Assembly: GCA_026390815.1 (NCBI GenBank)
Contig: JAPLFH010000033.1
Span: 124,001-188,000 of the forward strand
Direction: 5' to 3'
DNA length: 64,000 bases
Origin: Ignavibacteriales bacterium
GTDB lineage: Bacteria; Bacteroidota; Ignavibacteria; Ignavibacteriales; SURF-24
Each line of letters begins with the position of its first letter. Position 1 is the stretch's first letter. Made by a program: the position numbers and the translations under genes. The notes below the pieces were generated by a model. That model had not been told where the DNA came from. It worked only from the letters and a program-made list of their open reading frames with translations, and did not search any database. Positions 18,894 through 47,294 of the stretch are shown here, piece after piece.

Positions 18894-18895
18894 TA

Positions 18896-25379: not shown

Positions 25380-25426
25380 AATTAAATTCCTTCTTTCTTT
25401 TAGAGAAGATTAAGAGTGGGTTTATT

Positions 25427-26956: not shown

Positions 26957-27041
26957 ATATTTGATCCAGATAAAATGGATTATACTTATTCAATTTAAAA
27001 ATATGGCGCTTCTCTAAATAGATAAAACCGCGAGGCAGGAA

Positions 27042-28814: not shown

Positions 28815-28858
28815 AATGAAATCCCCAAAAACAATTTTGTTGAAGAAATCAGATCCAA

Positions 28859-28930
28859 AAAATTGGAAATTGGAAATTGGAAAATGGAAATTAGAAATTA
28901 GAAATTGGAAAATGGAAATTGGAAATTGAA
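28859..28930 (+). repeat. Left repeat arm, tandem TTGGAAA-type units
   Basis: Tandem copies of a 7-9 base unit (ttggaaattggaaattgg, then variants with aaaatgg and ttagaaa). The same unit appears in reverse complement at 29476-29511, so the two arms bracket the four-helix-bundle gene. Confidence 0.7.
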
Positions 28931-28985
28931 GATTGAGCTTCTATACAATGGAATAATTCACTAAAAATTAAATAATGAGTTTATT

Positions 28986-29378
28986 ATGAGTGAATCAGGT
29001 GCTGTAAAATATTTTACTGATTTAGAGTGTTGGAAATTAGGAAGAAAGGTCAGACAAGAAATTTATAAAGTTGTTCGTATTCTTCCAGACGAGGAAAAAT
29101 TTGATCTTGCTCCACAGTTGAGAAGAGCTGGAGTATCAATAACCGCCAACATTGCCGAAGGATTTGGAAGATATCATTATCAGGAGAACATTCAATTCTG
29201 TAGACATAGCCGAGGCTCACTTTATGAAACACACGATCATCTAACCACTTGTCTTGATGAAAACTATATTGATAAAAATAAATTTGATGAATTAACTATA
29301 TTAATTGAACAAACAGCAAAAACCTTAAACGGTTATATCCGTTGGTTAAACAAGCAAAAGGGGAAATTGGTAAAATAG
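28986..29378 (+). CDS. Four-helix-bundle protein (23S rRNA intervening-sequence protein family)
   Basis: 130 residues, all-helical. The family pattern is clear: YFTDLECWKLGRKVRQEIY at the start, PQLRRAGVSITANIAEGFGRY in helix 2-3 and RGSLYETHDHLTTC in helix 3-4. Members (S23/IVP family) were first found inside intervening sequences of 23S rRNA genes, but solo copies like this one are common in environmental Bacteroidetes/Chlorobi; their function is unknown. It lies between inverted repeat arms at 28859-28930 and 29476-29511, unrelated in function to the flanking symporter and mannosidase genes. Confidence 0.85.
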   Translation: MSESGAVKYFTDLECWKLGRKVRQEIYKVVRILPDEEKFDLAPQLRRAGVSITANIAEGFGRYHYQENIQFCRHSRGSLYETHDHLTTCLDENYIDKNKFDELTILIEQTAKTLNGYIRWLNKQKGKLVK

Positions 29379-29475
29379 AAATTTGAATTTGGAATTATAG
29401 ACTAAGAATTCGAACTTAAGCTGATTAGAATTGTTTTTTAAAAATATAATTTGGTATTCAATTTTATCGATATCT

Positions 29476-29511
29476 GGTTTCCAATTTCCAATTTCTAATT
29501 TCCAATTTCCA
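29476..29511 (-). repeat. Right repeat arm, inverted copy of the TTGGAAA-type units
   Basis: ttccaatttccaatttctaa and following units are the reverse complement of the arm at 28859-28930. A hairpin between the arms would expose the four-helix-bundle gene in the loop. The remaining sequence between 29379 and 29475 shows nothing recognisable. Confidence 0.65.
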
Positions 29512-29536
29512 GATTCAAATTGTTTTCAGGATAATC

Positions 29537-31978: not shown

Positions 31979-31982
31979 TTTT

Positions 31983-34900
31983 ATGAAATATTTATTTGCG
32001 AGAAATATAACCAGGAAATTTAATTTCCTTTATCAGCAATTTTCATTTACAATTCTGGTTAATAGAAAATTCTTAGTCAATCTGCAATCTTCATATTTCC
32101 AATTTCTAATTCCTAATCTTGTGATTTTATTTTTTAGTTGCACTACAGTCTTTGCCCAGGAAGTAATCAAAATTCCCGATGATGGTTGGCGGTTGTGGTG
32201 CGATACTTCTGCACAATGGCAGAACGATAAACTTTATCTTCCGGATGAATTTGAATTAAAAGATCTTCTGGCAAATCCACCAAGCGGAGGCTGGGATGTA
32301 TTGAATGATAATTCCGGGATCCCGGTTAAACTACCTTCCACGATAGAAGAACATTACTGGGGCAAATTTGGATATAAACCTTACACGGATGGCGAGTATT
32401 GGTTTGGTAGAGAAGACAATCAGGTTAAGAATGGAAATTACCTTGGGGTTTCCTGGTGGTGGACTAACATTGATATTCCTAAAAGTTTTGAAAGTAAAAA
32501 AGTAATTCTTTTTATTCGCGGAGCACGACTAAGAGCGGAGGTATATCTTAATCAAAAATTGGTCGGTTACAATATTATAAACGAAGTTTCGTTTAAGTGT
32601 GATTTAACTGAAGCGATTAATCCTGGCAAAAAAAATCTTCTGGCGATCCGGATTACAAATCCCGGCGGCAGGCTTGATTGGGCGGACACTCAATTACTTA
32701 AATGGGGAGAATACAGTTTTCAAAAAAGCCATGGCTTTGGTGGATTAGACAGAGGAATTAAAATAACTGCACACAATCCAATTTATTTTGATGACCTATA
32801 TGTTTTGAACAATCAAACTGTAAATAGGATATCGGTAATTTCAAAAATTCAGAATTCTACAGCAGAAGATTTTAAATGTAAACTTCAGATAGAAGTGATT
32901 GATCCTGCAAAATCAAATCAAGTTGTTGCTACTACAGAAAAAGAATTATTTGTAAAAGCAAAAGAGCAAGAAGTTATTTCCACTGATATTGTTTATGATA
33001 AAGCTGAATTGTGGAGCGACAAAAATCCAAAGCTTTATAAACTAAAAACAAAAATTGTTACTGATAAAAAAGAAGGTGAAGTAGAAGAGATCAATTTTGG
33101 TTTCCGCTGGTTTGAAGCTGATGGAATTGGAACCAACGCTATGCTGCGGCTAAATAAAAATCGTATCAGGTTGTATTCTGCAATATCGTGGGGATTCTGG
33201 GGTTACAATGGTTTATGGCCCACGCCAGAACTTGCAGAAAAAGAAGTAAAAGCCGCTAAAGAATTAGGAATGAATTGTATTCAATTTCATCGCAATGTTG
33301 GCAAAGCCGAAGTTTTAGATGCTCAGGATCGTTTGGGGCTGCTACGTTATATGGAGCCGGGTGGTGGACAATCAGCGCTTGGAGAAAAATATTCTATGTA
33401 TGCAAAATCACCCACAGAAAAAATTGATGATTCCGGAAAAAATGGTGATTCAAATTCATTTGCTGAAAAATATATGGAAGAGAAAATAGTTCGTATGATA
33501 CAGGATCACCGCAATCATCCATCATTGATTTTGTATTGTGTGCAGAATGAAATAAATCCCGACTTAAAAAATCCGCGCATCTTTCATCTTATAAAGAGAA
33601 TGCACCAGGAAGATCCAAGTAGAATTGTAATTTTAAAATCAGGAATCCCACCTAACAACCAGGTTTGGATGAAACCATATGATGATAGAGTTTATTATGA
33701 CAGCGGAAATGGATTCAGCGGTTGGTGGGATCAGCACACAGTTGGTGGTCCTGGTGTTTGGCGCGATGATATGTATAAAAATCCAGAAGACTTTACTCAT
33801 CGTTCAACAAACCAAAAAGAAATTGTTACCTGGGGAGAAATGCTTGGTTGCGCTGTTCCGGATAATCATCCAATATTGATTGAGCAAATAAAAAATCATG
33901 GCAGCAGTTACGATTTGGAAGATCATGAAGTTGTACTGGAAGCATACGAAAAGTTTATTGATAAGTGGAATTTCCGTTCAGCTTTCAAAACAACAGAAAA
34001 TCTTTTTAAGGATATTGGAAACAAGAGTTATGATTTTTGGGGAAGAGTCGTTGAATCGGCAAGGTTATCTGATGAAAATGATTTTCTTGTAATGAGCGGA
34101 TGGGAATCGACAGCAATCGAAAATCATTCTGGCTTGGTGGATAATTTGCGCAACTTCAAAGGTGATCCGAACCTAATCAAATCAAGATTAGCTTTAGCTA
34201 AACCAACAATTAAGTTTAGATCTTTGGTAATCCCAATAGGTGGTAAAGCTGTTTTTGATATTTACTGGATGAATGAATTGAACCATCCACTTGGAACGCG
34301 GCTGCATTTCTTTATGACTGATCCTTCTGGTAAACGGGAAGATCTAAAAAAATATGAAGTGCTAAATTTTATTAAAGATCAGTTCGTTTATAAAATTGCT
34401 GTTGGTGAAGAAACGCCGGTTCTTAACCAAGTGGGCAAATACAAATTCGTGCTTGAACGAGGTGCAGATACATCAATGAGAGCGGAGGAGGAAATTCTTG
34501 TTGTTGATCCTACAGGTGAAGGAAAGCTGCCCAACTCTGTTGCAGTAATAAGTGATGATGAAAAATTTATTCAAGCAGTAGGTTCACTTCCTGGAGTTCT
34601 GGCTGAGAAATATAATCCTCAAAAAAAATATGAAGCCGCAATAATAACAACGCGATTGAAATATGGTTGGCGCTCAGAGGTCGACTCAACAACAGAAATT
34701 CAAAACACTGATGACGATGTGCTGTTCCATACTGAAAGCTGGGGGTATTGGGAAAACCTGGAATATGTATTTAGCGATCTGCCGAAGGGAAAAGCAAAAG
34801 TTACTCTTCGCTTTGCGGAAGTAACTTTGAACAAACCTAAAGCAAGAATATTTGATGTTGCTATTAACGGAGATACTGTTTTGAAAAATTTCGACATCTT

Positions 34901-35606
34901 TTCTGAATCAGGCGGAAGAAATATTGCGATAGATAAAATTTTTACAATCGATGTGCCGGATGGTGTAATTAAAATTACAGTTCCAAAGCTTACTACTAAT
35001 TATGGAAAATTCAGCGCACTAAAAATTGAAGCGGGTGAAGCTGTAATTGCAATTAATTGTGGAGGGAAACCTTACAAAGATAAAAATGGTTTGATCTGGA
35101 AAAAGTATGAGGCAAAATTAAATCTGGATGAAAAGATTTTAGAAAAAGTAAAAGAAGGAATGTCTCTGCTTGTATTACCAGAAGGCGAAGATGCCTCGCT
35201 TGCTTACGGAAGGAAGTTGGGTGATGCCGGGGCTTTTAATTTTATTGGTCACGTTGGTGAAACACGTGCCCCCTGGATGGGTTCCTGGTATTTTGTCCGA
35301 AGCCATCCGGTTTATAGCGGCTTACCGGTTAATTGTGCAATGGGAAGTTATTATCAAGTTCCGGTAGATGGAGCAGATGGAATTTTACTTGATGGTGAAA
35401 ACGTAGAAGTGTTTGCAGGATATGGAAGAGATCACGATAGAAACATAGGTGCAGCTAGTTTTTCATCTAAACTTGGGAAGGGCAAAATCTTATTCCATAC
35501 AATTCCGGGAATAATTTCTGGAATGAAAGGAACTCCGGAAGGAATACATCCGGTGATGTTAAAAAGGTTAATGATGAATTCTTTGAGATATTTGAGTGAA
35601 AAGTGA
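31983..35606 (+). CDS. Secreted GH2-like beta-glycosidase with malectin-like region
   Basis: 1207 residues. The GH2 sugar-binding (jelly-roll) domain starts near 110, the immunoglobulin-like domain near 270, and the TIM barrel near 380. LYCVQNEINPDL carries the Asn-Glu acid/base pair and IVTWGEMLG a candidate nucleophile Glu. Residues ~900-1030 (HTESWGYWENLEYVFSDL, FDVAINGDTVLKNFDI) look like a malectin-type carbohydrate-binding module. The 5' end is unusual: the signal peptide lies after ~40 extra residues, part of which (32088-32118) is encoded by a dispersed TTCCAATTTCTAATT repeat. A true start further inside is possible but none has a clear ribosome binding site. Substrate (galactoside, glucuronide, mannoside) is not decided. 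Confidence 0.82.
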   Translation: MKYLFARNITRKFNFLYQQFSFTILVNRKFLVNLQSSYFQFLIPNLVILFFSCTTVFAQEVIKIPDDGWRLWCDTSAQWQNDKLYLPDEFELKDLLANPPSGGWDVLNDNSGIPVKLPSTIEEHYWGKFGYKPYTDGEYWFGREDNQVKNGNYLGVSWWWTNIDIPKSFESKKVILFIRGARLRAEVYLNQKLVGYNIINEVSFKCDLTEAINPGKKNLLAIRITNPGGRLDWADTQLLKWGEYSFQKSHGFGGLDRGIKITAHNPIYFDDLYVLNNQTVNRISVISKIQNSTAEDFKCKLQIEVIDPAKSNQVVATTEKELFVKAKEQEVISTDIVYDKAELWSDKNPKLYKLKTKIVTDKKEGEVEEINFGFRWFEADGIGTNAMLRLNKNRIRLYSAISWGFWGYNGLWPTPELAEKEVKAAKELGMNCIQFHRNVGKAEVLDAQDRLGLLRYMEPGGGQSALGEKYSMYAKSPTEKIDDSGKNGDSNSFAEKYMEEKIVRMIQDHRNHPSLILYCVQNEINPDLKNPRIFHLIKRMHQEDPSRIVILKSGIPPNNQVWMKPYDDRVYYDSGNGFSGWWDQHTVGGPGVWRDDMYKNPEDFTHRSTNQKEIVTWGEMLGCAVPDNHPILIEQIKNHGSSYDLEDHEVVLEAYEKFIDKWNFRSAFKTTENLFKDIGNKSYDFWGRVVESARLSDENDFLVMSGWESTAIENHSGLVDNLRNFKGDPNLIKSRLALAKPTIKFRSLVIPIGGKAVFDIYWMNELNHPLGTRLHFFMTDPSGKREDLKKYEVLNFIKDQFVYKIAVGEETPVLNQVGKYKFVLERGADTSMRAEEEILVVDPTGEGKLPNSVAVISDDEKFIQAVGSLPGVLAEKYNPQKKYEAAIITTRLKYGWRSEVDSTTEIQNTDDDVLFHTESWGYWENLEYVFSDLPKGKAKVTLRFAEVTLNKPKARIFDVAINGDTVLKNFDIFSESGGRNIAIDKIFTIDVPDGVIKITVPKLTTNYGKFSALKIEAGEAVIAINCGGKPYKDKNGLIWKKYEAKLNLDEKILEKVKEGMSLLVLPEGEDASLAYGRKLGDAGAFNFIGHVGETRAPWMGSWYFVRSHPVYSGLPVNCAMGSYYQVPVDGADGILLDGENVEVFAGYGRDHDRNIGAASFSSKLGKGKILFHTIPGIISGMKGTPEGIHPVMLKRLMMNSLRYLSEK
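32088..32118 (-). repeat. Dispersed repeat unit inside the 5' coding end of the GH2-like gene
   Basis: The stretch atttccaatttctaattcct repeats the right-arm units found at 29476-29511. It is read in frame as FQFLIPN just before the hydrophobic signal-peptide core. Confidence 0.55.
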
Positions 35607-35748
35607 AAGGGAAAGTGAAGGGGACGAGTGAAAAGGGAAAGGGAAAAGGGAAAAGTGAAAGGGACGAGGGAAAGGGAAAAGTGAAAGGGGAAAGGGAAAA
35701 GTGAAGGGGCGAGTGAAAGAAAAATTTGAAAGAGGAAAAAGATGTGGA
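35593..35748 (+). repeat. Purine-only tandem repeat after the GH2-like gene
   Basis: About 150 bases of degenerate units such as gtgaaagggaaa and gggacgag, almost pure A+G on the + strand. It starts within the last codons of the GH2-like gene and fills most of the space before the next gene. The units differ from the TTGGAAA type but have similar short period. Confidence 0.7.
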
Positions 35749-35779
35749 AAGTTAAAAGAGGGGAGCAAAGGAGAAATTA

Positions 35780-35863
35780 ATGAATAATATTCTTAAACCC
35801 GTTCCTTTAAAATCCGGAATCCTAAATCCCCAATCTCAAATAAATGATGTTGGTTTAATATGA
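35780..35863 (+). CDS. Possible 27-residue leader peptide
   Basis: ATG at 35780 has a good ribosome binding site (AAAGGAGAAATTA). The 27-codon frame ends with TGA at 35861-35863, overlapping the ATG of the following methyltransferase gene as ATGA, which would allow translational coupling. The peptide has no recognisable family and part of it (aatcctaaatccccaatctc) looks like dispersed-repeat sequence. It may be chance. Confidence 0.3.
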   Translation: MNNILKPVPLKSGILNPQSQINDVGLI

Positions 35864-36882
35864 AATTGAACATGAATGACTGGAAGAAAAGTATTATTGA
35901 AAGCAAAGAACGGAAAGCTATGCCAGTTATGACACATCCAGGCATTGAAATAATTGGCGCAAAAATAAAAGATGCAGTTCAAAACGGAACAGTTCACTAT
36001 AATGCAGTAAAAGCTGTTGCAGAAAAATATCCTTCCGCTGCCACCACAATGATAATGGATCTTTCAGTTGAAGCAGAAGCATTTGGTGCAGAAATAAAAT
36101 TTAGTGATAATGAAGTTCCTGCTGTTATATCTAGAGTTGTGTACGATGAAAGATCAATCACCAATTTAAAAGTACCAGATTTAGATTGCGGAAGATTTGG
36201 ACAGTATATTACTGCCGCAAAATTAGCTTCTGAGAATATTAAAGACAGACCGGTATTTGCTGGATGTATTGGACCGTTTTCATTAGCAAGCAGGTTATAT
36301 GATATTACTGAGATAATGACCGCGTTGCTGCTTGAACCGGAATCAATTTGTTTCCTTTTAGAAAAATGTTCGCAGCTTCTTATAAATTATTGCAGCGCTT
36401 TTAAAAAAGTTGGAGCAAATGGGATTTTTATGGCAGAGCCTGCCGCTGGTATGCTTTCTCCGGATTCTTGCACAGAATTTTCCTCTGACTTCATTAAAAA
36501 AATTGTTGCAGAAGTGCAGGATGAAAATTTCCTGGTTATACTTCACAATTGTGGCAATACAAATTCTCTTTTGGATACAATGCAATCTACCAATGCGGCT
36601 GCCCTTCATTTTGGTAACCAGAATGATATTGTAAAATCTTTGAAGCATATTGAAAAGGACAAATTGGTTTTAGGAAACATTGATCCCGCCAGGGTTTTTA
36701 CGATGTCTGATGCCGAGCAGGTTTATAATATTACTTATAACTTATTGGAAAAAACTTCTTCATTTAAAAATTTTATTTTATCTTCTGGCTGCGATATTCC
36801 ACCAAACGTTCCAATGGATAACATTGATTCGTTTTATAAAGCTCTGGAAGATTATAATTGCAAAAGAAACGCCGGAAATTAA
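35860..36882 (+). CDS. URO-D-fold methyltransferase with full zinc site (MtaA/MtbA-like)
   Basis: 340 residues, uroporphyrinogen-decarboxylase fold. The zinc ligands of methylcobamide:coenzyme M methyltransferases (His-x-Cys and a distant Cys) are all present: His229 and Cys231 in ILHNCGNT and Cys311 in LSSGCDIPP, with spacing very close to that in MtaA/MtbA. It is therefore the best candidate in the window for a true corrinoid methyltransferase, either removing a methyl group from a substrate or passing it from the corrinoid protein to an acceptor thiol. ATG at 35860 overlaps a short upstream frame; ATG at 35872 is an alternative. First of three such genes on this strand. Confidence 0.85.
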   Translation: MKLNMNDWKKSIIESKERKAMPVMTHPGIEIIGAKIKDAVQNGTVHYNAVKAVAEKYPSAATTMIMDLSVEAEAFGAEIKFSDNEVPAVISRVVYDERSITNLKVPDLDCGRFGQYITAAKLASENIKDRPVFAGCIGPFSLASRLYDITEIMTALLLEPESICFLLEKCSQLLINYCSAFKKVGANGIFMAEPAAGMLSPDSCTEFSSDFIKKIVAEVQDENFLVILHNCGNTNSLLDTMQSTNAAALHFGNQNDIVKSLKHIEKDKLVLGNIDPARVFTMSDAEQVYNITYNLLEKTSSFKNFILSSGCDIPPNVPMDNIDSFYKALEDYNCKRNAGN

Positions 36883-36915
36883 AAGTGAGATCAAAATAAA
36901 AATTAGGAATAAAAA

Positions 36916-37941
36916 ATGCGCCCAGACATTCAAACATTTATTACAACATTAAAACGCGGTAAAGGAAAACATATTCCGCTTTGTGAATTGGGAATTCATC
37001 CAATCATTAAAGCAATGCTGATTGGTAGAACTGTAAACGAACTGAAAGATGATGTTGAGTTCTGGTATAAAGCGGGTTATGATTATATCAAACTTCAACC
37101 GAAAGCGGATTTTAATCCAGCACAAATTGGATTATCGAAAAACGTTACCTTCAACGAAGACGGTACGATTTTTAGAAAGTGGGCTTCGGAAAGTAAGGGA
37201 GTAATAACAAGCTTTGAAGAATTTGAACGCTACGTTTTTCCGAACAAGGAAGATTTTAATTATGAAAATTTTGGAAAAGTAAAATCTCTTCTTCCAGATG
37301 GTATGGGAGTTATCGGTCAGTACGGTGATATTTTTACAATGACCTGGGAGATGATGGGCTTTGAAACTTTTTCAATCAGTTTGTTTGAAAATCCTGAGTT
37401 GATTGAAGCACTGAACAACAAAGTTGGTGAGCTTGTTCTTAGTATGTTTGAAAATATGGTTCAGCAAGAAAACGTTGATGTACTATGGTACAGTGATGAC
37501 ATAGCTTATACAAACGGGCTGCTTGTTTCGCCAATAATTCTTGATCAGCTATTTTTTCCCTGGTTAAAGAAGATTGGTGATTTGGCAAAACAATACAACA
37601 AACCGCTGATTTATCATACAGATGGAATTTTGTATGATGTATTTGATAAAATTATTGAGTGCGGTGTTGACGCCATTCATCCGATAGAACCCAAGTCAAT
37701 GGATATACTTGAAGTTAAAAAACGTTATGGAGATAAACTTTGTGTTATCGGTAATGTTGAAGTTGATTTGCTTGCACGTGGTACGGTTGAGGAAATTGAA
37801 AATAGTGTAAAAGAAAAAATTAAGTCTGTTGGGCAGAGTGGCGGGTACTGCTTAGGTTCAAGCAATAGCATTCCGGAATATGTGAAGTATGAAAACTACC
37901 TGGCAATGCTCAGGGCAACGAAAGAATATGGAGATTTGTAA
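36916..37941 (+). CDS. URO-D-fold methyltransferase, variant zinc site (His-x-Asp)
   Basis: 341 residues, uroporphyrinogen-decarboxylase fold. Where the related enzymes have His-x-Cys this one has His234 and Asp236 (YHTDGIL), and the distal motif reads YCLGSSNSIP with a Cys one position pair earlier. The metal site would differ from that of the MtaA type, or the protein may bind another substrate. WYSDDIAYTNGLLVSP is typical of this URO-D-like group. Real heme URO-D is unlikely because the gene lies among sugar and corrinoid genes and has paralogs. ATG start after AAAATTAGGAAT. Confidence 0.82.
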   Translation: MRPDIQTFITTLKRGKGKHIPLCELGIHPIIKAMLIGRTVNELKDDVEFWYKAGYDYIKLQPKADFNPAQIGLSKNVTFNEDGTIFRKWASESKGVITSFEEFERYVFPNKEDFNYENFGKVKSLLPDGMGVIGQYGDIFTMTWEMMGFETFSISLFENPELIEALNNKVGELVLSMFENMVQQENVDVLWYSDDIAYTNGLLVSPIILDQLFFPWLKKIGDLAKQYNKPLIYHTDGILYDVFDKIIECGVDAIHPIEPKSMDILEVKKRYGDKLCVIGNVEVDLLARGTVEEIENSVKEKIKSVGQSGGYCLGSSNSIPEYVKYENYLAMLRATKEYGDL

Positions 37942-38057
37942 ATGAATCGAAGTATCCATCCATTTAAGACGTGTTGATATTAGAAGATTAATCTTATACT
38001 GAAATATCGATTCACAAAATCAACAAATGAAAATTTGACAAAGAAAAATTACCCGGT

Positions 38058-38246
38058 TTATTTTTCTTTAATTACCAAATATTTTCCAATTCCCCAGGCA
38101 ATTGCAAACAGCAGACTGGTTTGAGCAAACATATGCCAGGTAGAATTTGAAAAGTAAATGTTGTAAGACGTTAGTTTTCCAATTAAACCGAGTGCAAGAC
38201 TTACAACTGCAAGAATTAAAGAAATGAGAATAATTCTGTCTTTCAT
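38058..38246 (-). CDS. Small two-TM membrane protein
   Basis: 62 residues with two hydrophobic helices (IILISLILAVVSLALGLIG and FAQTSLLFAIAWGIGKYLVI). Ribosome binding site AAAGAGAG six bases before the ATG. It is alone on this strand between two URO-D-like genes. No family recognised. Its position gives no clear function. Confidence 0.6.
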   Translation of the reverse strand: MKDRIILISLILAVVSLALGLIGKLTSYNIYFSNSTWHMFAQTSLLFAIAWGIGKYLVIKEK

Positions 38247-38331
38247 AAAACTCTCTTTTGGTTATGCAACTGCAAATTGTAATAAAATTTTATCACTGTC
38301 AATAAGTTTTTTTCATTTAAGATAAAAGAAT

Positions 38332-39348
38332 ATGAACAGCAGAGATAGAGTTAAAAACATTATTATGCGTAAACCAGCGGAGCGCAATGGCTTCTGGCTT
38401 GGTAATCCTCATCCTGATACCTGGAATATTCTTCATAAATATTTTTGGACTACAAATGAAGAAGAACTCAGACAAAAACTGAATGATGATTTTCGGTGGA
38501 TTACTCCGCAATATTTGGACTCTACTTATCAGCATCCAATGGGTAAGGGAATTTTTGACATTTGGAAAAGAAAACTTGCACATGGTGAATTAGGACCACT
38601 TGCCAATTGTATAAGTGTAAATGAAGTTGAAGATTTTGAGTGGCCCAATTTAGATTACTTGAATTTTGATGAATGTCTATCGATTTTGAAAAACATTGGT
38701 GATTATTATCGTGCTAGCGGTTTCTGGGCACCTTTCTTTCACGATATAATCGACCTGTTCGGGATGGAAAATTATTTCCTTAAGATGTATACCAACCCCG
38801 AAGTTGTTCACGCTGTTACGGAAAAAGTTTGTACATTCTACCTTGAAGCAAACAAGAAGTTTTATTCTCAAGCTGGCGATTTGATTGATGCATATTTTTT
38901 TGGTAACGATTTCGGGACACAATTCGATTTGTTATTAAGTCCGGAACAGCTTGAGGAATTTATTATGCCCTGGTTCAGGAAGTTTACCAATCAGGCGCAT
39001 CAATATGGTTACCAGGTTATTCTTCATTCGTGCGGATCGATATTTAAAGTGATTGAGAAATTAATTGATGCAGGAGTTGATTGCCTTCACCCTTTACAGG
39101 CTAAGGCAAAAGATATGAATGCCGAAAATCTTGCCGAGCATTTTAAAGACAGAATTGCTTTTATGGGTGGAATAGATACACAGGATCTTTTAGTGAATGC
39201 ATCACCGGCTGAAGTTAAGAAAGAAGTAAAAAGAATTAAGGAACTACTTGGACCAAATTTAATTATCAGTCCAAGTCACGAGGCTTTACTTCCGAACGTT
39301 CCACCGTGCAATGTTGCGGCGATGGCAGAAGCAGCGGTTGAAATCTGA
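38332..39348 (+). CDS. URO-D-fold methyltransferase, third copy on + strand
   Basis: 338 residues, starting NSRDRVKNIIMRKPAERNGF, the usual N-terminus of URO-D-like methyltransferases. His232 and Cys234 are present in ILHSCGSIF; at the distal position SPSHEALLP carries His instead of Cys, so a His-Cys-His site is possible. NDFGTQFDLLLSPEQLEEF is the substrate-side helix found in this group. Ends 10 bp before the convergent GH31 gene, so the two operons meet here. Confidence 0.84.
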   Translation: MNSRDRVKNIIMRKPAERNGFWLGNPHPDTWNILHKYFWTTNEEELRQKLNDDFRWITPQYLDSTYQHPMGKGIFDIWKRKLAHGELGPLANCISVNEVEDFEWPNLDYLNFDECLSILKNIGDYYRASGFWAPFFHDIIDLFGMENYFLKMYTNPEVVHAVTEKVCTFYLEANKKFYSQAGDLIDAYFFGNDFGTQFDLLLSPEQLEEFIMPWFRKFTNQAHQYGYQVILHSCGSIFKVIEKLIDAGVDCLHPLQAKAKDMNAENLAEHFKDRIAFMGGIDTQDLLVNASPAEVKKEVKRIKELLGPNLIISPSHEALLPNVPPCNVAAMAEAAVEI

Positions 39349-39358
39349 AGTCAAGTTT

Positions 39359-41755
39359 CTATCTGGTTATTATTATTTTTCCATTACTAAGTTTTGGAAG
39401 ATAAAACTGACAGATATTTTCTGCTGTAACTTCTGCCAGAATTTCTTCCGATTCTTTTCCACTCATTAATTTTGCTTTAGTAAATGAAACTGTGTGCCTG
39501 AATCTTAAAAAATAATTCCTTTCGTTACCACTCTTAATCTCTACTACCATATTCGCATCACTTCTTTTACAAATAAATTCAGTTTCTCCTTCATCTTCAT
39601 ACAAAATATATTTGCTTTCATTGTCAGGATAAATTTCAATTATCAACGGATCGATGAATGATTCCGGAATTCGGTTTGCCGGCTGCATCATCGGGATGGT
39701 TGAACCTCTCTTTACAAATATCGGCATATCTTCCATCGGCATTTCAACTCTAACATTCGCAGTTCCTTTGTAAACTACACCACTGTGATAATCTATCCAT
39801 TCTCCTTTTGGGAAATATACTATTCTGGAATTGCTGCCATCATATATTGGAGCAATTAACAAAGATGGTCCGAACATATATTCCAAATCCTTATTAAAAG
39901 TATTTGGATCATCCGGAAAGATAAGCGGCAGTGCGCGCATCACCGGCATACCGGTTCTACTTGCTTCTATCGCTGTACTGTAGATGTATGGAAAAAGCTG
40001 GTAACGCAGATTGATATATTTACGAACATATGCAAGTGCAATTTCTCCAAAATACCATGGTTCTCGCGGGCTATCACCGTGCATCCGACTGTGTGAGCAG
40101 AACAATCCAAACTGTGCCCAACGTATATACAATTCCGGTGATGGCATTCCCCTGTAACCGCCAATATCATTGCTCCAGAAAGGAACTCCGCTTAAACCAA
40201 TTGATAAACCTCCGCGGATTGTGCAGGCTAAGCTTTCAAAATCAGCAGCCGGATCGCCGGACCAACAAGTCGGGTACCTTTGATTTCCTGCTGTACCAGA
40301 GCGGCTCCAAACGATGCCATATTTTTTTTCTTCCTTAGTAACTTCAAAAACGGCTTTGTTATAAAGAAGCGGGTAAAGATTGTGCATCGTCTTTCCGGTT
40401 TCTCCGTTAAAGAAAATGGCATCTTCCGGAATGTCTTCGCCAAAATCTGTTTTGAAAACATCTGCGCCATCTTTAAAGATTGGACGATGTAAATTCTTGA
40501 ACCAATCGTAAGCATCAGGATTTGTTAAATCAATTATTACAACTCTTGCGTTCCAGGAATTTTCACTTGATGCTGTTCTAACAATACCATCAGGAAGAGG
40601 AACTAATGACAGACCATAATCAATTACGTAAACTTTTCCATTGGAGTGTTTGATAAAATAATTATTTGTAATTCCTTCCCTGTAAAGATCGCTTTCAATA
40701 GATATATACGGATGCTCCCACAAACAAACTTTCAATCCTTTTCTGTGAAGACCTTCAATAAAATTCTCTATTTGCGGAAAGGCTTCACGGTTCCATTTGA
40801 AGTTACAATATTCTCTCCATTTCATCCACCAGGGATCGATATGAACAACGTCTGCTGGTATATTATAATCTTCAAGTCCTGAAACAAGTTTTTCCATTGC
40901 TTCCTGATCGCGGTAAGTTCCACCGGAAGAAATCCACAAACCGAAGGACCATTTTGGTGGTACTGGAGCGTAACCTGTAATATCAGAATATCTTTTTAAA
41001 ATTTCTTTGGGATTCGGACCATAAATTACAAACACGTCGAGAGTGTTCGCTTCCTGTTTGATTGTATAAGACTGGCATGATTCTGTTCCAATCTCCCAGG
41101 TAATTCTTGCGCCGCTGTTAATCAGTAATCCATATCCTATCGTGCTCCAAAGAAAAGGAATATTTTTATACGATCTTTCACTTGTTGATCCGAGCGCATC
41201 AACTGTCCAGGATGTTATCTTTTGTCCAACTTTATTAAGCGGAGTAAATTTTTCTCCCAATCCAAAAATGGCTTCATCCTGATTAAGGTTGAAGGATTGT
41301 GTAATAACGACAACTTCGTCATTCTCTTTTGCATAACCTAACGGTAGAACAAACTTTCTTCCTAAACCGTCTACGTCTTTATTATTCTCACCAAATACTT
41401 CTTTTCCTGTTACATCAAAGAAGTGAATTGAAAAAGGATCTCTGCAAACGGATAATCTTAAGGATGTGCCTGTTACTTCAATTCCATCACCATTGTCAAT
41501 CACAGTAAGACTAATCGGTTTAATATAATCTTCATTTACAAATTGAGATGGAATAACAATTTTAGCATTTGGCGGGATAAAAGTATAATTCCAAACATCT
41601 TTGGAAGCTGCGCGGAAGAGAATCGAGGCTTCCCAACCGTTGGCGGTTATGCAGGAAAGTATCAGAGCATTTCCATTAAGTTTCCAGTCTTTTAGTTTTA
41701 CGATCCAATCGAAATTATTAGGAGCGTTATAAGGGATTAACATTGTGTAACTCAA
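39359..41755 (-). CDS. GH31 alpha-xylosidase/alpha-glucosidase (YicI-like)
   Basis: 798 residues, no signal peptide. GH31 catalytic core with nucleophile Asp437 in DVFKTDFGEDIP; the KTDFGE motif is that of YicI-type alpha-xylosidases rather than the WxDMNE of alpha-glucosidases. An N-terminal beta-sandwich (GLGEKFTPLNKVGQ) and C-terminal beta domains complete the usual layout, and WSGDPAADFESL carries the acid/base Asp region. It would remove alpha-xylose from xyloglucan-type or similar oligosaccharides in the cytoplasm. Last gene of the corrinoid operon, 37 bp after the preceding URO-D-like gene. Confidence 0.9.
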   Translation of the reverse strand: MSYTMLIPYNAPNNFDWIVKLKDWKLNGNALILSCITANGWEASILFRAASKDVWNYTFIPPNAKIVIPSQFVNEDYIKPISLTVIDNGDGIEVTGTSLRLSVCRDPFSIHFFDVTGKEVFGENNKDVDGLGRKFVLPLGYAKENDEVVVITQSFNLNQDEAIFGLGEKFTPLNKVGQKITSWTVDALGSTSERSYKNIPFLWSTIGYGLLINSGARITWEIGTESCQSYTIKQEANTLDVFVIYGPNPKEILKRYSDITGYAPVPPKWSFGLWISSGGTYRDQEAMEKLVSGLEDYNIPADVVHIDPWWMKWREYCNFKWNREAFPQIENFIEGLHRKGLKVCLWEHPYISIESDLYREGITNNYFIKHSNGKVYVIDYGLSLVPLPDGIVRTASSENSWNARVVIIDLTNPDAYDWFKNLHRPIFKDGADVFKTDFGEDIPEDAIFFNGETGKTMHNLYPLLYNKAVFEVTKEEKKYGIVWSRSGTAGNQRYPTCWSGDPAADFESLACTIRGGLSIGLSGVPFWSNDIGGYRGMPSPELYIRWAQFGLFCSHSRMHGDSPREPWYFGEIALAYVRKYINLRYQLFPYIYSTAIEASRTGMPVMRALPLIFPDDPNTFNKDLEYMFGPSLLIAPIYDGSNSRIVYFPKGEWIDYHSGVVYKGTANVRVEMPMEDMPIFVKRGSTIPMMQPANRIPESFIDPLIIEIYPDNESKYILYEDEGETEFICKRSDANMVVEIKSGNERNYFLRFRHTVSFTKAKLMSGKESEEILAEVTAENICQFYLPKLSNGKIIITR

Positions 41756-41792
41756 ATATTAAAGTTCAAAAATCAGAATCAAATCTTTGATT

Positions 41793-42944
41793 TTATTTAT
41801 TATCTATTATGATCCGGTAAATTTCATCCAGATCTGTTTCTTGCCAATCGATACCAAGCAATCCGTTGGCGATATCCACATTAATAAACATTCCACAATT
41901 CGTTTTACTTGCTTTCAAAATTCGCATTACAAAATCTTTCATACTATTAAATTTAATATCGCGATTGAAACCAATCCGGCAAGCTAATGGTATTCTTCCG
42001 CTAAAATGATCAAGAACTTTTTCATAACCCGCTTCACTTGCGCCAAACTCAAGTCCACGCAAGTTTTTTATTTTGTCTAAGCTGCTGAATTGGTGAAGCC
42101 AGTTACCACAGGAGTGAATATAGATTCCACCAAACTCTTCAGAAAGTTGATTCAGGTACGGTACATTAAACTCATCGTGCATTTCAGAAGAAATCATTAC
42201 AGATTCATCGTTGGAGATTGAAATTCCAAATCCATCCGGAAGCCAAGGTTGGAACATACTTGGAACGAATTCTACACCAGATTTTTTTACAATTTCTCTC
42301 TGCGTTTTTATAAAGTCAATCATTATTTCCGTTACTATTTTTAGCAGGTAATGTACTTCTTCAGGATTTGTATGCATCGCCATTAGTAAGTTGCTGTGTC
42401 CAAAAATCAATGCGGCATTATCAAGTGGTCCCTGAACATCAGTTAACCTAATCGGAATTTTTCCATTAGTCTTTTCAATAAAATATTTAGTGTAATCAAG
42501 AATTCTTCCCAATTCACCATCGGTAACGGATGGTTTGTTTATTTCATAAACTTTCATTGGATCATCATTTATTATTGCTTTAACGGAAGGGAAATCTTTT
42601 TCCCACCACATTACCTGACAGCCGAAAGCAGACGGGAAGGCAATTACTCCAAGTGAAGGACAAAGTGAAGGAATATAATCGCCTTTTAATTTAAGTTGTC
42701 CGGATATTTCTTCTAACTGAGCATTCAAATATTTTTCCGGATCGAGTAATCGATCTTTAACTGTATCGGTTCCATCTGTAGAAAACAGTGCACTCTTAAC
42801 TGATTTCCCACCTTTAATTTTTGGACCTACATAACCAATCATATATGCAGGGCGCTCAATGTTTTCTAAATTCCAAAAAAGATTTAAATAATCTTTGCTG
42901 GAATTTATTTGCTGATTGAAAATTGTAAGATCAAATTTTTCTAT
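41793..42944 (-). CDS. URO-D-fold methyltransferase, probably starting at ATA
   Basis: 349 residues from the first usual start (ATG at 42842), but the same frame continues upstream for 34 codons with convincing protein sequence (SKDYLNLFWNLENIERPAYM) to a stop at 42945-42947. AGGAGG lies five bases before an ATA at 42944-42942, which overlaps the TAG of the upstream gene as ATAG. That mirrors the common ATGA coupling, so ATA is the likely start. Zinc motif His-x-Cys is in IHSCGNWLHQ (His277 counted from ATA). A distal Cys is seen in TNCGMFINVD. The longer start puts the His at the same place as in the two neighbouring paralogs (273-274), which supports it. Confidence 0.8.
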   Translation of the reverse strand: MEKFDLTIFNQQINSSKDYLNLFWNLENIERPAYMIGYVGPKIKGGKSVKSALFSTDGTDTVKDRLLDPEKYLNAQLEEISGQLKLKGDYIPSLCPSLGVIAFPSAFGCQVMWWEKDFPSVKAIINDDPMKVYEINKPSVTDGELGRILDYTKYFIEKTNGKIPIRLTDVQGPLDNAALIFGHSNLLMAMHTNPEEVHYLLKIVTEIMIDFIKTQREIVKKSGVEFVPSMFQPWLPDGFGISISNDESVMISSEMHDEFNVPYLNQLSEEFGGIYIHSCGNWLHQFSSLDKIKNLRGLEFGASEAGYEKVLDHFSGRIPLACRIGFNRDIKFNSMKDFVMRILKASKTNCGMFINVDIANGLLGIDWQETDLDEIYRIIIDNK

Positions 42945-44086
42945 TTATTCCTCCTGTATTGTTCAGCAGCTTCCATCATAGCGTTTATATTCTCAATCGG
43001 AGTACCGGGTGGAATGTTATTTCCATCCTGAAGAATGAATCCATTATATGAAGACAACTTTTCTATTACTCGTTTGCATTCATTTTTAATTTGTTCTGGT
43101 GTACCTGAATGAATTAACATCGGATTAACATTACCAACCAGAACAACCTTTCCTCCCATAACTTCAGCGATATAATCGAGATCAACCTGGTAACCAAAAC
43201 CCTGGAGTTCGTTTATTCTAAGTTCATCTCTAAAGATTTTTAAAAGGTGATCGCTCTTTCCGCACATATGCAGGGAAAGATAACCATCAAAATTATTGCG
43301 TAGTTTTTTTTCATAAGGAAGAACAATATTTCTAAACTGTTCTTCTGAAAGTGATACTGCCAGATCATCCGTCCAGGCAAAATCTTTTGGTTGCGGTAAT
43401 TTTTCTTCTTCCCAACAAAAGTTTAAGTATTCAATCATTTTATCAGTTACAATTCGCAGTAACTCTTTAACAAACTCTGGTCTTTCGTGAACAGCTTCGA
43501 ATATTTCCGTGTTACCCATCAGGTCGCCAGCAACACCAAAGGGACCATCGGATGTGTGAGTGAGCGAAGGATTCTCGCCCGGATATAATATATCTCCACC
43601 AAGAAAACGAACCGGATATTTATCAGCTACATCTATCATCTCTTTCCTGTATTCAAGCTGCTTAAAGTTTATTCCGTTGTGAATATATTCTATTGCCTCT
43701 AATTTCTGTAAATCTATTTCATCTTTAATCCAACCTTTGCCAACCCAGGGGATATCATCATCAGGAAAAATAATTTCGCATCCAAGGCTTCCAGATTCAA
43801 ATGTATTTTGAAAATCTGTCCACGCTCCAACCCAAGGTCCTGTAATTGAATATGCGTCAGTTTTAATATTTTCTAATAACCACTTTTGGGCAAGGATTTG
43901 TGATCGCAGCATTGTTTCCGGGTTGCCGTAATAATCTTTGAAGTTAACACCAACTTGTGGAATTAGGAATCTGTGAGCTATTGCAGGTATAACCGGAACA
44001 CGATCTGTCGATTGAAAACTCTTTGCTTTGGTAATCCTTTCTTTCCGGTTCGCAAGTTCTTCAACAGAAATGTTTATTTCAATCAT
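42941..44086 (-). CDS. URO-D-fold methyltransferase, variant without distal Cys
   Basis: 381 residues, uroporphyrinogen-decarboxylase fold. His273 and Cys275 are present in LHMCGKSD; the distal motif ILQDGNNIPPGTP has Asp/Asn instead of Cys. FAWTDDLAVSLSEEQF is the substrate-side motif. Its stop codon overlaps the proposed ATA start of the next gene. It begins 17 bp after the preceding paralog, so the three form a tight tandem set; pairwise similarity is low by eye, suggesting different substrates rather than recent duplication. Confidence 0.84.
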   Translation of the reverse strand: MIEINISVEELANRKERITKAKSFQSTDRVPVIPAIAHRFLIPQVGVNFKDYYGNPETMLRSQILAQKWLLENIKTDAYSITGPWVGAWTDFQNTFESGSLGCEIIFPDDDIPWVGKGWIKDEIDLQKLEAIEYIHNGINFKQLEYRKEMIDVADKYPVRFLGGDILYPGENPSLTHTSDGPFGVAGDLMGNTEIFEAVHERPEFVKELLRIVTDKMIEYLNFCWEEEKLPQPKDFAWTDDLAVSLSEEQFRNIVLPYEKKLRNNFDGYLSLHMCGKSDHLLKIFRDELRINELQGFGYQVDLDYIAEVMGGKVVLVGNVNPMLIHSGTPEQIKNECKRVIEKLSSYNGFILQDGNNIPPGTPIENINAMMEAAEQYRRNK

Positions 44087-44103
44087 AAATTAATTTCGAT
44101 GTT

Positions 44104-45270
44104 TCATTTAGAAAAATCATAAATGCACTTTTGTGCTTCATCGGCAAACGCTTTAAGTAATTCCAAATCAGCGTCAAAAAAATGATCGGATGGTGAAAGA
44201 ATAAAACCGCCGCCTTCGCCGGCATCTCTAAAACATTTGCGCACTGCTTTCCTGGTTTCCTCCGGTGAGCAATCCTTGAAGAAATGAAATTGATCGAAAC
44301 CACCGATCATGCAAACTTTATTACCAATGCGTTTCTTTGCTTCGCTCAAGACTGTATCTCCACCCATTTCTGTTGGAGTAAAAGTTTCCATCGCGTCTGG
44401 ATTCATATCTGCAATCAATTCAAGGAAAGGCATCATTCCACCACAAGTGTGGTAAACAATACGTTGCCCTGCTTGGTGAGCAAGATCGATTAATGGTGCA
44501 TCGTATGGTGCAACAAATTCTTCAAATATATTTGGTGAAATAACTGTGCTTGAAGCATCTCCACCGCCATGTTCAATTAAATCGTATTTAGCACCTTTAA
44601 GAGATTGAACATAAACTTTCTTTTTTTCAAACAGGATTTTAAGAAATGTGTGAACCCATTCCGGATCTTCAAATGTTGCCATTATTAAATTTTCAATTCC
44701 GTATAGTACCGAAGCATCCTGCCAGCAACCAGATTGACCATAGACATCAAAGAAATTTATTAAACCGCGTATCAATCCTCTTTCACCGAATGCATCGGCT
44801 TGTTTATTTATTTGTTCAACATCGCACTTCGGTGCAACCGCATACTCAGCAATAATTTCTATATCCGATTTTTCTTTTATCAGTCGTTCAGAAACCCAAG
44901 AAGTATATTGATTGCTCTGAAGAACCATGGAAAGCTTTTTTTTTGGAGTAACAAAATTATAGCGGATTGTTTTATAAACATCATCCTCAATTTCTTTAGT
45001 GAATATTCTCCAGTTATCAGTCGAGATTCTTCTTGCCTCCAGGTAGCCTGGAGTATGGTTAGGATCGTAATATTCACCAACAGCTTCATCGGGTTTGTAT
45101 GCCTGCACCCAGCAAATTGGATCCAAACCAAAATGATCAAAGAAATCCTGGTTAGAAATTCCGTTCATATATGTATTTAGAAAATACTCCATTATATGGT
45201 GGGTGGTTACAGGAAGTCTGTCCGGTACTTTTCTGGCAAGAGCTGTTAAGAATCTTTGCTTCGATGTCAT
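44104..45270 (-). CDS. URO-D-fold methyltransferase, first of the minus-strand set
   Basis: 388 residues. N-terminus MTSKQRFLTALARKVPDRLP is the classic beginning of URO-D-like methyltransferases (substrate-binding region near the N-terminus). His274 and Cys276 in YHTCGGMMPF are present; the distal motif ILSPSDHFFD has Asp/His in place of Cys. GGDASSTVISPNIFEEFVAPYDAP is the typical central helix. Located 47 bp after the RbsD-like gene in the corrinoid operon. The catalytic role is inferred from fold and neighbours. Confidence 0.85.
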   Translation of the reverse strand: MTSKQRFLTALARKVPDRLPVTTHHIMEYFLNTYMNGISNQDFFDHFGLDPICWVQAYKPDEAVGEYYDPNHTPGYLEARRISTDNWRIFTKEIEDDVYKTIRYNFVTPKKKLSMVLQSNQYTSWVSERLIKEKSDIEIIAEYAVAPKCDVEQINKQADAFGERGLIRGLINFFDVYGQSGCWQDASVLYGIENLIMATFEDPEWVHTFLKILFEKKKVYVQSLKGAKYDLIEHGGGDASSTVISPNIFEEFVAPYDAPLIDLAHQAGQRIVYHTCGGMMPFLELIADMNPDAMETFTPTEMGGDTVLSEAKKRIGNKVCMIGGFDQFHFFKDCSPEETRKAVRKCFRDAGEGGGFILSPSDHFFDADLELLKAFADEAQKCIYDFSK

Positions 45271-45317
45271 TTTAAGTTGCCATTTTTAAAAGAATGGATT
45301 TTTTCATTAGACTGTGT

Positions 45318-45722
45318 TTAAAAAATTACTCCGGCTGTTAAAACTAAATTTGCAAAAGGAGTCGCTTCGCCTGTTTTAACAAAAGTAATGTTTTTTTCTA
45401 ATGCATTAACTTCCAGAAATTCTTTATGCGAAATTTTTTGAATCTTTATTCCTTCAGGAATAAGATCCGTAATTCCCTTCAGAATATGCGGACTTCTAAT
45501 TTCCATTTCGTTGGTAACCAGCGCACCTTCAATCTTCAATTCTTCAAGGATTACTTTTAATGTATCTAAAACCCTTGGAATATTTACTGTTAAAGAAACA
45601 TCAACTATTCTTGCACCGAAGGGAATTGGATAACCGCTATCGCATATTGCTAATTTGTGTCCATGACCTGTACCAGCAATAACAGATGCAAGTTGTGAAT
45701 TAAGGATTCCACCCTTTTTCAT
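45318..45722 (-). CDS. rbsD: RbsD/FucU-family sugar mutarotase
   Basis: 134 residues, close to the usual RbsD length. MKKGGILNSQLASVIAGTGHGHKL at the N-terminus includes the catalytic His (GHGH) and CDSGYPIP is the second signature. RbsD/FucU enzymes interconvert pyranose and furanose or alpha and beta forms of free sugars such as ribose and fucose. Its place between the MetH-activation protein and the URO-D-like methyltransferases in one operon directly ties the corrinoid genes to sugar metabolism. RBS is not strong. Confidence 0.88.
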   Translation of the reverse strand: MKKGGILNSQLASVIAGTGHGHKLAICDSGYPIPFGARIVDVSLTVNIPRVLDTLKVILEELKIEGALVTNEMEIRSPHILKGITDLIPEGIKIQKISHKEFLEVNALEKNITFVKTGEATPFANLVLTAGVIF

Positions 45723-45820
45723 TTTATTACTCCGAAAAAAAATTATTTAAACTTACAGAGTTAATTCAAATAACTAAGTTTAGTAAATATTTGAACAGGA
45801 ACTCACTCAAACAAACTAAT

Positions 45821-46516
45821 TTATTTTTCTTTTCTTCTAAAGCAGGATTCCATTTCGCAAATAGAGCATTGATAATCAAGTTTCTTAACCTGATTTCCCA
45901 GACCAATTACACCGCTGACGGATTTTATTGGAATCATCAAAGCGCTGCTTGTAAGTGTAATTCCACAAAAGTTTTTGGGTAAAAGAGAAAATAATTTATG
46001 CTGTTCCTGAACCTTCCAGCCGCAGTAACCGGGGCTATACCTGTTAGTTGATTTTAATCCCTTGTCATCAATTACATTTTGTAATTTTATCTCCAAAAGA
46101 TCAACCGCACCTTCAACAACCTCTGAACCAATGGCATCAATTATATATCCCTTAAGAATGTCTTCTCCTTTTAATAATTCTTTGGACCATTGTTCTAAAA
46201 GATGTCCAGCGGTTGCTGTAAATATTGCCACGCTTGTACTTTTCTTAAGCTGCTTTGCAATGATGGATCCTGAGTTGAATGAAATATTATCAATTGTGAA
46301 CGAATCTTTTTTTTCTGAAATTTCAAAAGAATTAATGATTCGAAATCCCGCACGGATTTTTAAATAACCAGGTAAAACTGTAAGTATTTCTTCTATTGAA
46401 CGAATAACGGGTTGGGGAACAGAATTATTTTTATAACCTAAAGCTCTAACAATTATTGATGGAGAAATAACAATGTCCGAGATGGAAAATGAAAATTCGA
46501 ATATATCTTTTAACAT
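45821..46516 (-). CDS. MetH activation-domain protein (corrinoid reactivation)
   Basis: 231 residues, related to the C-terminal S-adenosylmethionine-binding activation domain of cobalamin-dependent methionine synthase. The key motif is seen as NRYSPGYCGWKVQEQHKLFSLL (about 150-171), where RxxPGY contacts SAM in MetH. It is followed by GITLTSSALMIPIKSVSGVIG, the usual end. The C-terminus adds a Cys pair pattern (CSICEMESCF) not found in MetH, which might hold a metal or Fe-S cluster. Solo proteins of this kind occur next to corrinoid methyltransferase genes and are thought to reactivate oxidised cobalt. No RamA/RACo-type activase is in the window. Confidence 0.82.
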   Translation of the reverse strand: MLKDIFEFSFSISDIVISPSIIVRALGYKNNSVPQPVIRSIEEILTVLPGYLKIRAGFRIINSFEISEKKDSFTIDNISFNSGSIIAKQLKKSTSVAIFTATAGHLLEQWSKELLKGEDILKGYIIDAIGSEVVEGAVDLLEIKLQNVIDDKGLKSTNRYSPGYCGWKVQEQHKLFSLLPKNFCGITLTSSALMIPIKSVSGVIGLGNQVKKLDYQCSICEMESCFRRKEK

Positions 46517-46545
46517 GCAATAAAAACTTCTCTTTGAATTAATTT

Positions 46546-47214
46546 CTATGCTACCATCGAATTTAAATATTCCAATGCACCTTGCGGATCCGGTGAATAA
46601 ACGTCCGCGCCAATTTTATTCGCGAACTCGTTTGTTAATGGTGCGCCTCCAACCAATACTTTAACTTCAGGGTGAGCTTCCTTTATTTTATGAGCGATTG
46701 TTTCCATATTTTGCATCGTGGTTGTAAGAAGTGCGCTTAATCCAACAGCATTAACTTTAAATTCATTTATTGCATTAATAAATTTATCTGCACCGGCATC
46801 CACTCCAAGATCAATAACTTTCCATCCACCGCCCTCGATAACCATCGATACAATATTTTTCCCGATGTCGTGCAAGTCGCCTGTAACCGTACCAAGCACT
46901 ATCGAACCTTTATGTTTAACTTCACCACTTTGGAAATATGGCTTAAGCAATTCCATTGCAGCCTTCATTGCTTTGGCAGAGATCAATACATCGGGGACAA
47001 AGATTTTATTTTCCCTAAATTTTTCACCAATATGCTTCATACCAATCATCAATCCATCGTTTAGAATTGATTGTGGTGGCAATCCTATTTCTAATGCTTT
47101 TTTTGTTAATTCAAAAGCGCCATCTTGCCCTTTCAGGTCCGGCGGGTAAGGTGATTGAGCATTAATTTTTCCCCGCTCTACACACACAGAGATTTTTTCA
47201 AGAAGTTCATTCAT
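46546..47214 (-). CDS. Corrinoid (B12-binding) methyl-carrier protein, MtaC/MtbC type
   Basis: 222 residues with the two-domain layout of methyl-carrier corrinoid proteins: a helical cap domain (~1-90) and a Rossmann B12-binding domain. GTVTGDLHDIGKNIV carries the cobalt ligand His115 in the DxHxxG motif; GLSALLTTTMQNM and VLVGGAPLTNEFANKIGAD are the remaining B12-binding signatures. It would carry the methyl group between a substrate methyltransferase and an acceptor methyltransferase. First gene of the - strand operon, directly behind the promoter and LacI-type operator at 47237-47294. The only corrinoid protein in the window, so it must serve all six URO-D-like proteins if they use one. 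Confidence 0.92.
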   Translation of the reverse strand: MNELLEKISVCVERGKINAQSPYPPDLKGQDGAFELTKKALEIGLPPQSILNDGLMIGMKHIGEKFRENKIFVPDVLISAKAMKAAMELLKPYFQSGEVKHKGSIVLGTVTGDLHDIGKNIVSMVIEGGGWKVIDLGVDAGADKFINAINEFKVNAVGLSALLTTTMQNMETIAHKIKEAHPEVKVLVGGAPLTNEFANKIGADVYSPDPQGALEYLNSMVA

Positions 47215-47236: not shown

Positions 47237-47294
47237 TGTTATCGTTAACATAAAATTCATTTGCAATTCTAACACTAAGAAGTAAAAGAATCAA
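47237..47294 (-). promoter_or_regulatory. Promoter with LacI-type operator before the corrinoid operon
   Basis: On the - strand TTGATT (47294-47289) and TAGAAT (47271-47266) are separated by 17 bases. The palindrome TGTTATCGTTAACA lies at 47237-47250, 15 bases after the -10 box and 23 bases before the corrinoid gene. It differs from the 12199-12212 operator at two positions, and its placement relative to the -10 box is nearly the same. The two operons are thus probably controlled by the same LacI protein (11081-12121). Confidence 0.72.

Follow-up and report, generated by a model that had tools for sequence, protein, structure and literature searches.

The window analysed here, a stretch of 64,000 nucleotides from an Ignavibacteriales bacterium (assembly GCA_026390815.1, contig JAPLFH010000033.1, positions 124,001-188,000 of the forward strand), carries at 35860-47214 a putative methyltransferase cluster composed of six genes for URO-D-fold proteins (U1 to U6), one corrinoid protein gene (Corr), one MetH-type reactivation gene (Act), one RbsD gene and one gene of glycoside hydrolase family 31 (GH31). 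With coordinates counted along the window, its genes are:

35860-36882 (+): U1, MtaA-like URO-D-fold putative methyltransferase with the full H-x-C...C zinc motif (PF01208, 3.3e-56)
36916-37941 (+): U2, URO-D-fold putative methyltransferase, HxD motif (PF01208, 7.6e-24)
38332-39348 (+): U3, URO-D-fold putative methyltransferase, HxC motif (PF01208, 2.5e-23)
39359-41755 (-): alpha-xylosidase-like glycosidase of family GH31, at the end of the Corr operon (PF01055, 1.1e-91)
41793-42842 (-): U4, URO-D-fold putative methyltransferase, HxC motif with H243 and C245 conserved (PF01208, 1.5e-16)
42941-44086 (-): U5, URO-D-fold putative methyltransferase, HxC motif with H273 and C275 conserved (PF01208, 7.2e-39)
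44104-45270 (-): U6, URO-D-fold putative methyltransferase, HxC motif with H274 and C276 conserved (PF01208, 2e-24)
45318-45722 (-): RbsD-type sugar pyranase/mutarotase (RbsD_FucU, 8e-33; PRK11797, 121 bits, cut-off 93)
45821-46516 (-): Act, stand-alone MetH-type activation protein for corrinoid reactivation dependent on S-adenosylmethionine (PF02965, Met_synt_B12, 9.9e-10)
46546-47214 (-): Corr, MtaC/MtbC-type corrinoid methyl carrier (B12-binding, PF02310, 7e-27; B12-binding_2, PF02607, 1.3e-18)

On the - strand the genes are transcribed in the order Corr, Act, RbsD, U6, U5, U4, GH31, and they are read as a single operon because the gaps between them measure only 17-98 bp; U1, U2 and U3 lie on the + strand, downstream of a malectin-GH2 gene. 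The initial annotation of this DNA had described three URO-D genes on each strand around GH31, a corrinoid protein with histidine 115 in the motif DLHDIG, and a MetH-activation-domain protein together with RbsD in the - strand operon, and all of these were found where it had placed them, the last two with the Pfam matches listed above. The host genome (4.52 Mb, 99.96% complete) encodes seven URO-D proteins, six of them in this locus and the seventh, HemE-like, on another contig (C24; below, C, G and L numbers denote contigs, genomes and loci), a grouping not put down to chance. A purine-rich tract of GGGAAAAG-like repeats occupies 35607-35859, immediately upstream of U1.

Components of a probable corrinoid methyltransfer system

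None of the six URO-D-fold proteins reaches the hemE equivalog cut-off (best score 76 bits against 303), and the separate C24 protein (PF01208) scores 471 bits against the same model. A HemE-like function was rejected for any of the six on these scores and on genome context, which also bears on a role confined to tetrapyrrole metabolism, the possibility that the initial annotation had raised against its own proposal. Models of the MtaA/CmuA family are among the best matches of the six, all below cut-off. When aligned to MtaA (4ay7), U1 retains both parts of the H-x-C...C zinc-ligand motif; HxC is conserved in the U3, U4, U5 and U6 families, in the last of these across the 69 homologues aligned, with HxD instead in U2. 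The AlphaFold2 model of U6 (pLDDT 91) forms a URO-D barrel that matches UROD and MtaA structures alike (both Z 26-28), so this comparison does not separate the two.

The His115 motif of Corr, DLHDIGKN, fits the DxHxxG carrier motif. The best match of Corr in the PDB is 1y80 (3e-51), and the proteins closest to it are corrinoid methyl carriers, 1y80 along with the trimethylamine and monomethylamine corrinoid proteins and MetH. The sole PDB match of Act is 1j6r, a chain of 214 residues that bears the name methionine synthase, and no RACE-type activase family was matched at E<=0.001 among the ten cluster proteins. The cluster holds three components of a corrinoid system: a small carrier, donor proteins of methyltransferase fold (U4-U6 in the operon, U1-U3 alongside) and a reactivation protein. 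The GH31 protein scores 583 bits against the PRK10658 alpha-xylosidase model, slightly below its cut-off of 606. A second corrinoid pair is found on contig C34 of the same genome (L054:8182-9633), where an MttB-family protein (TIGR02369, 381 bits, below cut-off) adjoins a corrinoid protein that shares about 41% identity with Corr; Corr was rejected as the partner of this MttB-type pair, which is a separate locus with its own corrinoid gene.

A shared operator and conserved neighbourhoods

The Corr operon is preceded by a LacI-type operator that recurs in front of sugar-uptake genes in the left half of the window:

47237-47250: LacI-type operator TGTTATCGTTAACA, lying 23-36 bp ahead of the start codon of Corr
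12199-12212: LacI-type operator TGTTAACGCTAACA, between the gene of the LacI-family regulator and the M24-mutarotase-symporter-GalK set
11081-12121 (+): LacI-family regulator (PF00356, 4.2e-13; Peripla_BP_1, 1.1e-35)
12313-17835 (+): M24 protein, mutarotase-like protein, sodium/solute symporter and galactokinase (GalK)

Genome-wide there are exactly three sites that match the pattern TGTTANCGNTAACA without deviation, all of them on this contig; the third stands ahead of a LamG-domain protein gene and a TonB-receptor gene. With one mismatch allowed, three sites were observed in the window against 0.15 in shuffles of it. The pattern was picked after two intergenic palindromes had been noticed; the genome-wide count and the relatives serve as independent checks. 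Upstream of Corr it recurs in three other genera (G001, G028 and G140): G028 has eight sites, seven of which fall on the contig that carries Corr, and the two sites of G140 are both situated in the interval that separates Corr from the divergently oriented M24-mutarotase-symporter-GalK set. The operator, shared by the Corr and symporter-GalK operons and found again before Corr in relatives, ties the methyltransferase operon to the uptake of sugars by evidence other than gene order. We infer that the LacI-family regulator is the candidate binder of the 12199 and 47237 operators. The M24 gene within the symporter-galactokinase set (12313-13614; also L079 and L093) is creatinase/prolidase-like.

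Orthologues of Corr (at least 53% identity) are present in 22 of 58 relatives. Within six genes of the orthologue, over 23 loci that leave out the window's own, 20 loci have a URO-D gene, 17 have Act and 13 have a gene for a homocysteine S-methyltransferase (HcyMT, PF02574). The order Corr-Act-RbsD-U6-U5-U4-GH31 is kept in G001, which has no HcyMT, and is expanded in G028 to Corr-Act-HcyMT-PfkB fragment-RbsD-lyxose isomerase-U6-U5-U4-GH31; in G140, a member of another family, GalK-symporter-mutarotase-M24 stands divergent from Corr-Act-ribokinase-U5-lyxose isomerase-U6-PhyH-RbsD. U5, U4 and GH31 remain together in Ignavibacteria, in one Caldithrix and in one Anaerolineae metagenome-assembled genome. 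The synteny of the module with GH31, GH2, GH38, RbsD and ribokinase is conserved, and linkage to GH31, GH2, RbsD, ribokinase and lyxose isomerase is repeated across several genera and phyla. The co-occurrence of corrinoid, URO-D-like and glycosidase genes, which the initial annotation had proposed to look for in related genomes, was indeed found. The URO-D protein that most often adjoins Corr in relatives is U2 (L039, L042, L044, L047, L049, L052, L058, L063). In L038 (G047), a group made up of Corr, two URO-D genes and Act encloses a gene for a CobW-like GTPase. Several unrelated loci have a gene for a PhyH-type Fe/2-oxoglutarate dioxygenase beside U2 (L042 and L058) or beside U6 (L079, L092, L099 and L105); as an oxygen-dependent partner it is at odds with a purely anaerobic pathway.

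Release of 4-O-methylglucuronate is a property of family GH115. In six relatives (L040, L045, L046, L048, L053, L059), a module of Corr, optionally HcyMT and Act, and URO-D begins two genes downstream of a GH115 alpha-glucuronidase gene, within xylan loci that also hold GH10, GH8 or GH43 genes. The products of GH115 enzymes include 4-O-methylglucuronate, which is the O-methyl sugar of glucuronoxylan (PMC4472178, PMC4870768). Across 395 genomes of the phylum, the GH115-linked type of URO-D is present in 11 and GH115 in 52. Within the class of the window, that URO-D type occurs in all ten GH115 genomes found and GH115 in ten of the 11 genomes with that URO-D (Fisher p 2.5e-7, counting only the 31 listed class genomes and ignoring their kinship). 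The genome with the URO-D and no GH115 (G395) still has Corr-HcyMT-Act beside it, and distant versions of the URO-D (32-37% identity) adjoin a Corr homologue in G166 and G263. In G034, G045 and G057, the non-hemE URO-D genes amount to the GH115-linked one and a single MtaA-like companion, which in G057 is on a different contig. From this gene context, the GH115-linked URO-D is a candidate 4-O-methylglucuronate demethylase. Outside the class, 42 Bacteroidota genomes have GH115 without this URO-D type; therefore other routes, or none, exist there.

The predicted methyl acceptor and the glycan genes of the window

The initial annotation had noted that the window encodes no pterin-type acceptor methyltransferase, which holds, and had suggested that such an acceptor is encoded elsewhere, which was rejected: Pterin_bind (PF00809) is carried genome-wide by two proteins only, a FolP-like protein and an intact MetH, both on other contigs. 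The acceptor enzyme linked to Corr in relatives is the homocysteine S-methyltransferase instead. Stand-alone PF02574 genes are present elsewhere in the genome of the window, and one of their products, encoded on contig C40, is 64% identical to the corrinoid-linked HcyMT of G037; in a tree of homocysteine methyltransferases this copy is placed, with weak support, near a corrinoid-linked one. The separate C40 gene probably provides the acceptor enzyme in this genome, and the methyl acceptor is most likely a thiol, homocysteine in particular, which would give methionine. Alternatively, U1, which is MtaA-like and might methylate a thiol as MtaA does, or MetH could take this part.

The remaining genes of the window place the cluster among glycan-degradation functions:

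left half of the window as a whole: GH3, GH63-like, two GH38 and GH2 glycosidases
17949-21330 (+): ribose-type ABC transporter (binding protein, double ATPase, permease)
22152-35606 (+): GH38, xylulokinase, symporter, GH38 and malectin-GH2, glycan-degradation genes ahead of U1

The left half contains two sodium/solute symporters in all, and the glycan locus extends about 30 kb further left, where GalT and a TonB receptor are encoded along with a protein bearing an FGE-sulfatase-type domain, and where further glycosidase-like genes are found. Two other genes are interspersed: one for a uracil-DNA-glycosylase-superfamily protein (PF03167, 3.7e-6) at 21358-22140, between the ribose-type ABC permease and GH38, and one at 28986-29378, between symporter and GH38, for a small four-helix-bundle-type protein that by eye resembles 23S rRNA intervening-sequence proteins and whose gene is flanked by ATTGGAAATTGGAAA-like repeats.

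Proposed function and competing explanations

The shared operator, the conserved synteny with sugar genes and the GH115-linked sister modules suggest that the locus is likely to be an oxygen-independent, corrinoid-dependent O-demethylation system within a glycan-utilisation regulon. Demethylation of O-methylated sugars, as proposed in the initial annotation, is thus the best explanation of these observations, with catalysis and substrate as predictions and with a different type of acceptor. In the proposed pathway, glycosidases and transporters would deliver O-methylated sugars, and substrate-specific URO-D-fold methyltransferases (U2-U6, perhaps U1) would transfer the methyl of the ether to Corr in its Co(I) state, with Act restoring oxidised Corr (Co(II)) by means of S-adenosylmethionine. 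The methyl group could then pass from Corr to homocysteine through the PF02574 homocysteine S-methyltransferase, yielding methionine, and the demethylated sugar would be phosphorylated and enter the RbsD, pentose-kinase or galactokinase routes. RbsD, xylulokinase, the alpha-xylosidase-like GH31 and the ribokinase and lyxose isomerase of relatives point to a pentose substrate, and GalK and GalT to galactose; an algal N-glycan with O-methyl-mannose plus xylose would fit GH38, GH31 and xylulokinase, and O-methyl-galactose would fit GalK and GalT.

Several observations pull the other way. Both in the window and in G001, Corr has neither an HcyMT nor a pterin enzyme as its neighbour. The genome of the window has neither GH115 nor the GH115-linked type of URO-D in the survey of 395 genomes, and for this reason the xylan data speak for this type of system but not for what the enzymes encoded in the window act on. 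Homologues of U6 occur in many phyla and are much more widespread than Corr orthologues; a corrinoid gene was found within 10 kb of the U6 homologue in just 12 of 71 loci, many of them on short contigs, and a stand-alone corrinoid protein (E<1e-40) is missing in three of the 50 U6 genomes. U6 may therefore partner other corrinoid proteins or have another role altogether.

An explanation that builds on these U6 data, and that we regard as unlikely, is that U6 and perhaps other members are corrinoid-free enzymes of sugar metabolism, with methyl transfer left to Corr, Act and some of the URO-D proteins. The high conservation of U6 (63-83% identity among the 80 best loci, out of 303 or more) and its commonest neighbours, a lyxose-isomerase-like protein and ribokinase, would agree with this, as would the rarity of a nearby corrinoid gene. 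However, HxC is kept in U6, the gene is part of the Corr operon in the window, G001, G028 and G140, and 47 of the 50 U6 genomes encode a stand-alone corrinoid protein at the above threshold, against 33 of 59 among the relatives of the window; the fold comparison discriminates in neither direction.

Sugar demethylation has also to be weighed against the type 1 mlp clusters described by Kountz and Balskus (PMC10418091), which likewise group several UroD-family proteins around a single corrinoid protein and have no folate methyltransferase, and which are mostly from Firmicutes, carry a RACE activase and are proposed to act on methyl-sulfur compounds or selenide. Reading the locus along these lines would accommodate the MtaA-like U1 with its full zinc motif, and the homocysteine methyltransferase of relatives would be consistent with methionine salvage. 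It is nevertheless quite improbable, as reactivation here relies on a MetH-type domain (PF02965) and not on a RACE protein, and the locus is distinguished by glycosidases and sugar transport, by an operator common to sugar operons, by linkage to GH31, GH2, RbsD, ribokinase and lyxose isomerase and by co-occurrence with GH115. It is similarly improbable that the URO-D proteins demethylate methoxylated aromatics of plant polysaccharides (e.g., ferulate) in the manner of OdmB/VdmB and not sugars: URO-D-fold phenolic O-demethylases do exist (PMC10418091) and CE1-like esterases, able to free ferulate, lie near URO-D or GH115 in L048, L053, L185 and L190, but most xylan loci lack a CE1-like esterase within the stretch read, yet GH115 accompanies the URO-D in ten of 11 genomes, and in the window no aromatic-degradation gene was found among the proteins scanned and the operator ties the locus to sugar uptake.

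For sugar demethylation, the machinery is known, and what is probably new is the substrate class, the glycan-regulon setting and the folate-free acceptor module of relatives. With the three-component systems (MtaABC, MtbBC and OdmB/VdmB-type) the locus shares a donor methyltransferase, a small corrinoid protein and a reactivation protein, and the zinc site of U1 is MtaA-like; it differs in having six URO-D genes for one corrinoid protein, MetH-type reactivation, a LacI-type glycan regulon and proposed sugar substrates, and no methyltransferase specific for folate or CoM was identified in the cluster. In the split methionine synthase/MtgBCDE system (PMC12478193), a corrinoid protein is common to the demethylating enzyme and a PF02574 homocysteine methyltransferase, comparable to the Corr, HcyMT and Act of relatives; however, MtgB is an MttB-family protein (pfam06253) acting on glycine betaine and MtgD is pterin-binding, whereas here the donors are URO-D-fold and there is no pterin module.

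Glucuronoxylan and the glycans of algae and cyanobacteria commonly contain O-methylated sugars, whose methyl ether can block ordinary catabolism. In the literature searched, the one enzymatic O-demethylation of a sugar is the P450 reaction on 6-O-methyl-D-galactose in porphyran degraders (PMC10033563), which likewise belongs to a polysaccharide-utilisation locus but is oxygen-dependent, requires P450, ferredoxin and reductase, and releases formaldehyde; no P450 was matched among the cluster genes in the Pfam scan, and no description of corrinoid-dependent sugar demethylation was found in the openly licensed literature searched. A wider generalisation, which we offer tentatively and with somewhat less than even confidence, is a modular anaerobic pathway in several phyla, in which interchangeable URO-D-fold enzymes, one for each O-methylated plant or algal sugar, would feed one corrinoid protein and convert methyl ethers to methionine, the GH115-linked member being the 4-O-methylglucuronate demethylase. 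The analysis names the genes concerned, pairs the sister module with a candidate substrate, 4-O-methylglucuronate from the neighbouring GH115, and predicts an acceptor. If sugar demethylation is correct, it would provide an oxygen-free route for O-methyl sugars beyond the oxygen-dependent P450 route, an additional source of methyl groups for methionine, and a role for a branch of the URO-D superfamily, which is large and for the most part uncharacterised.

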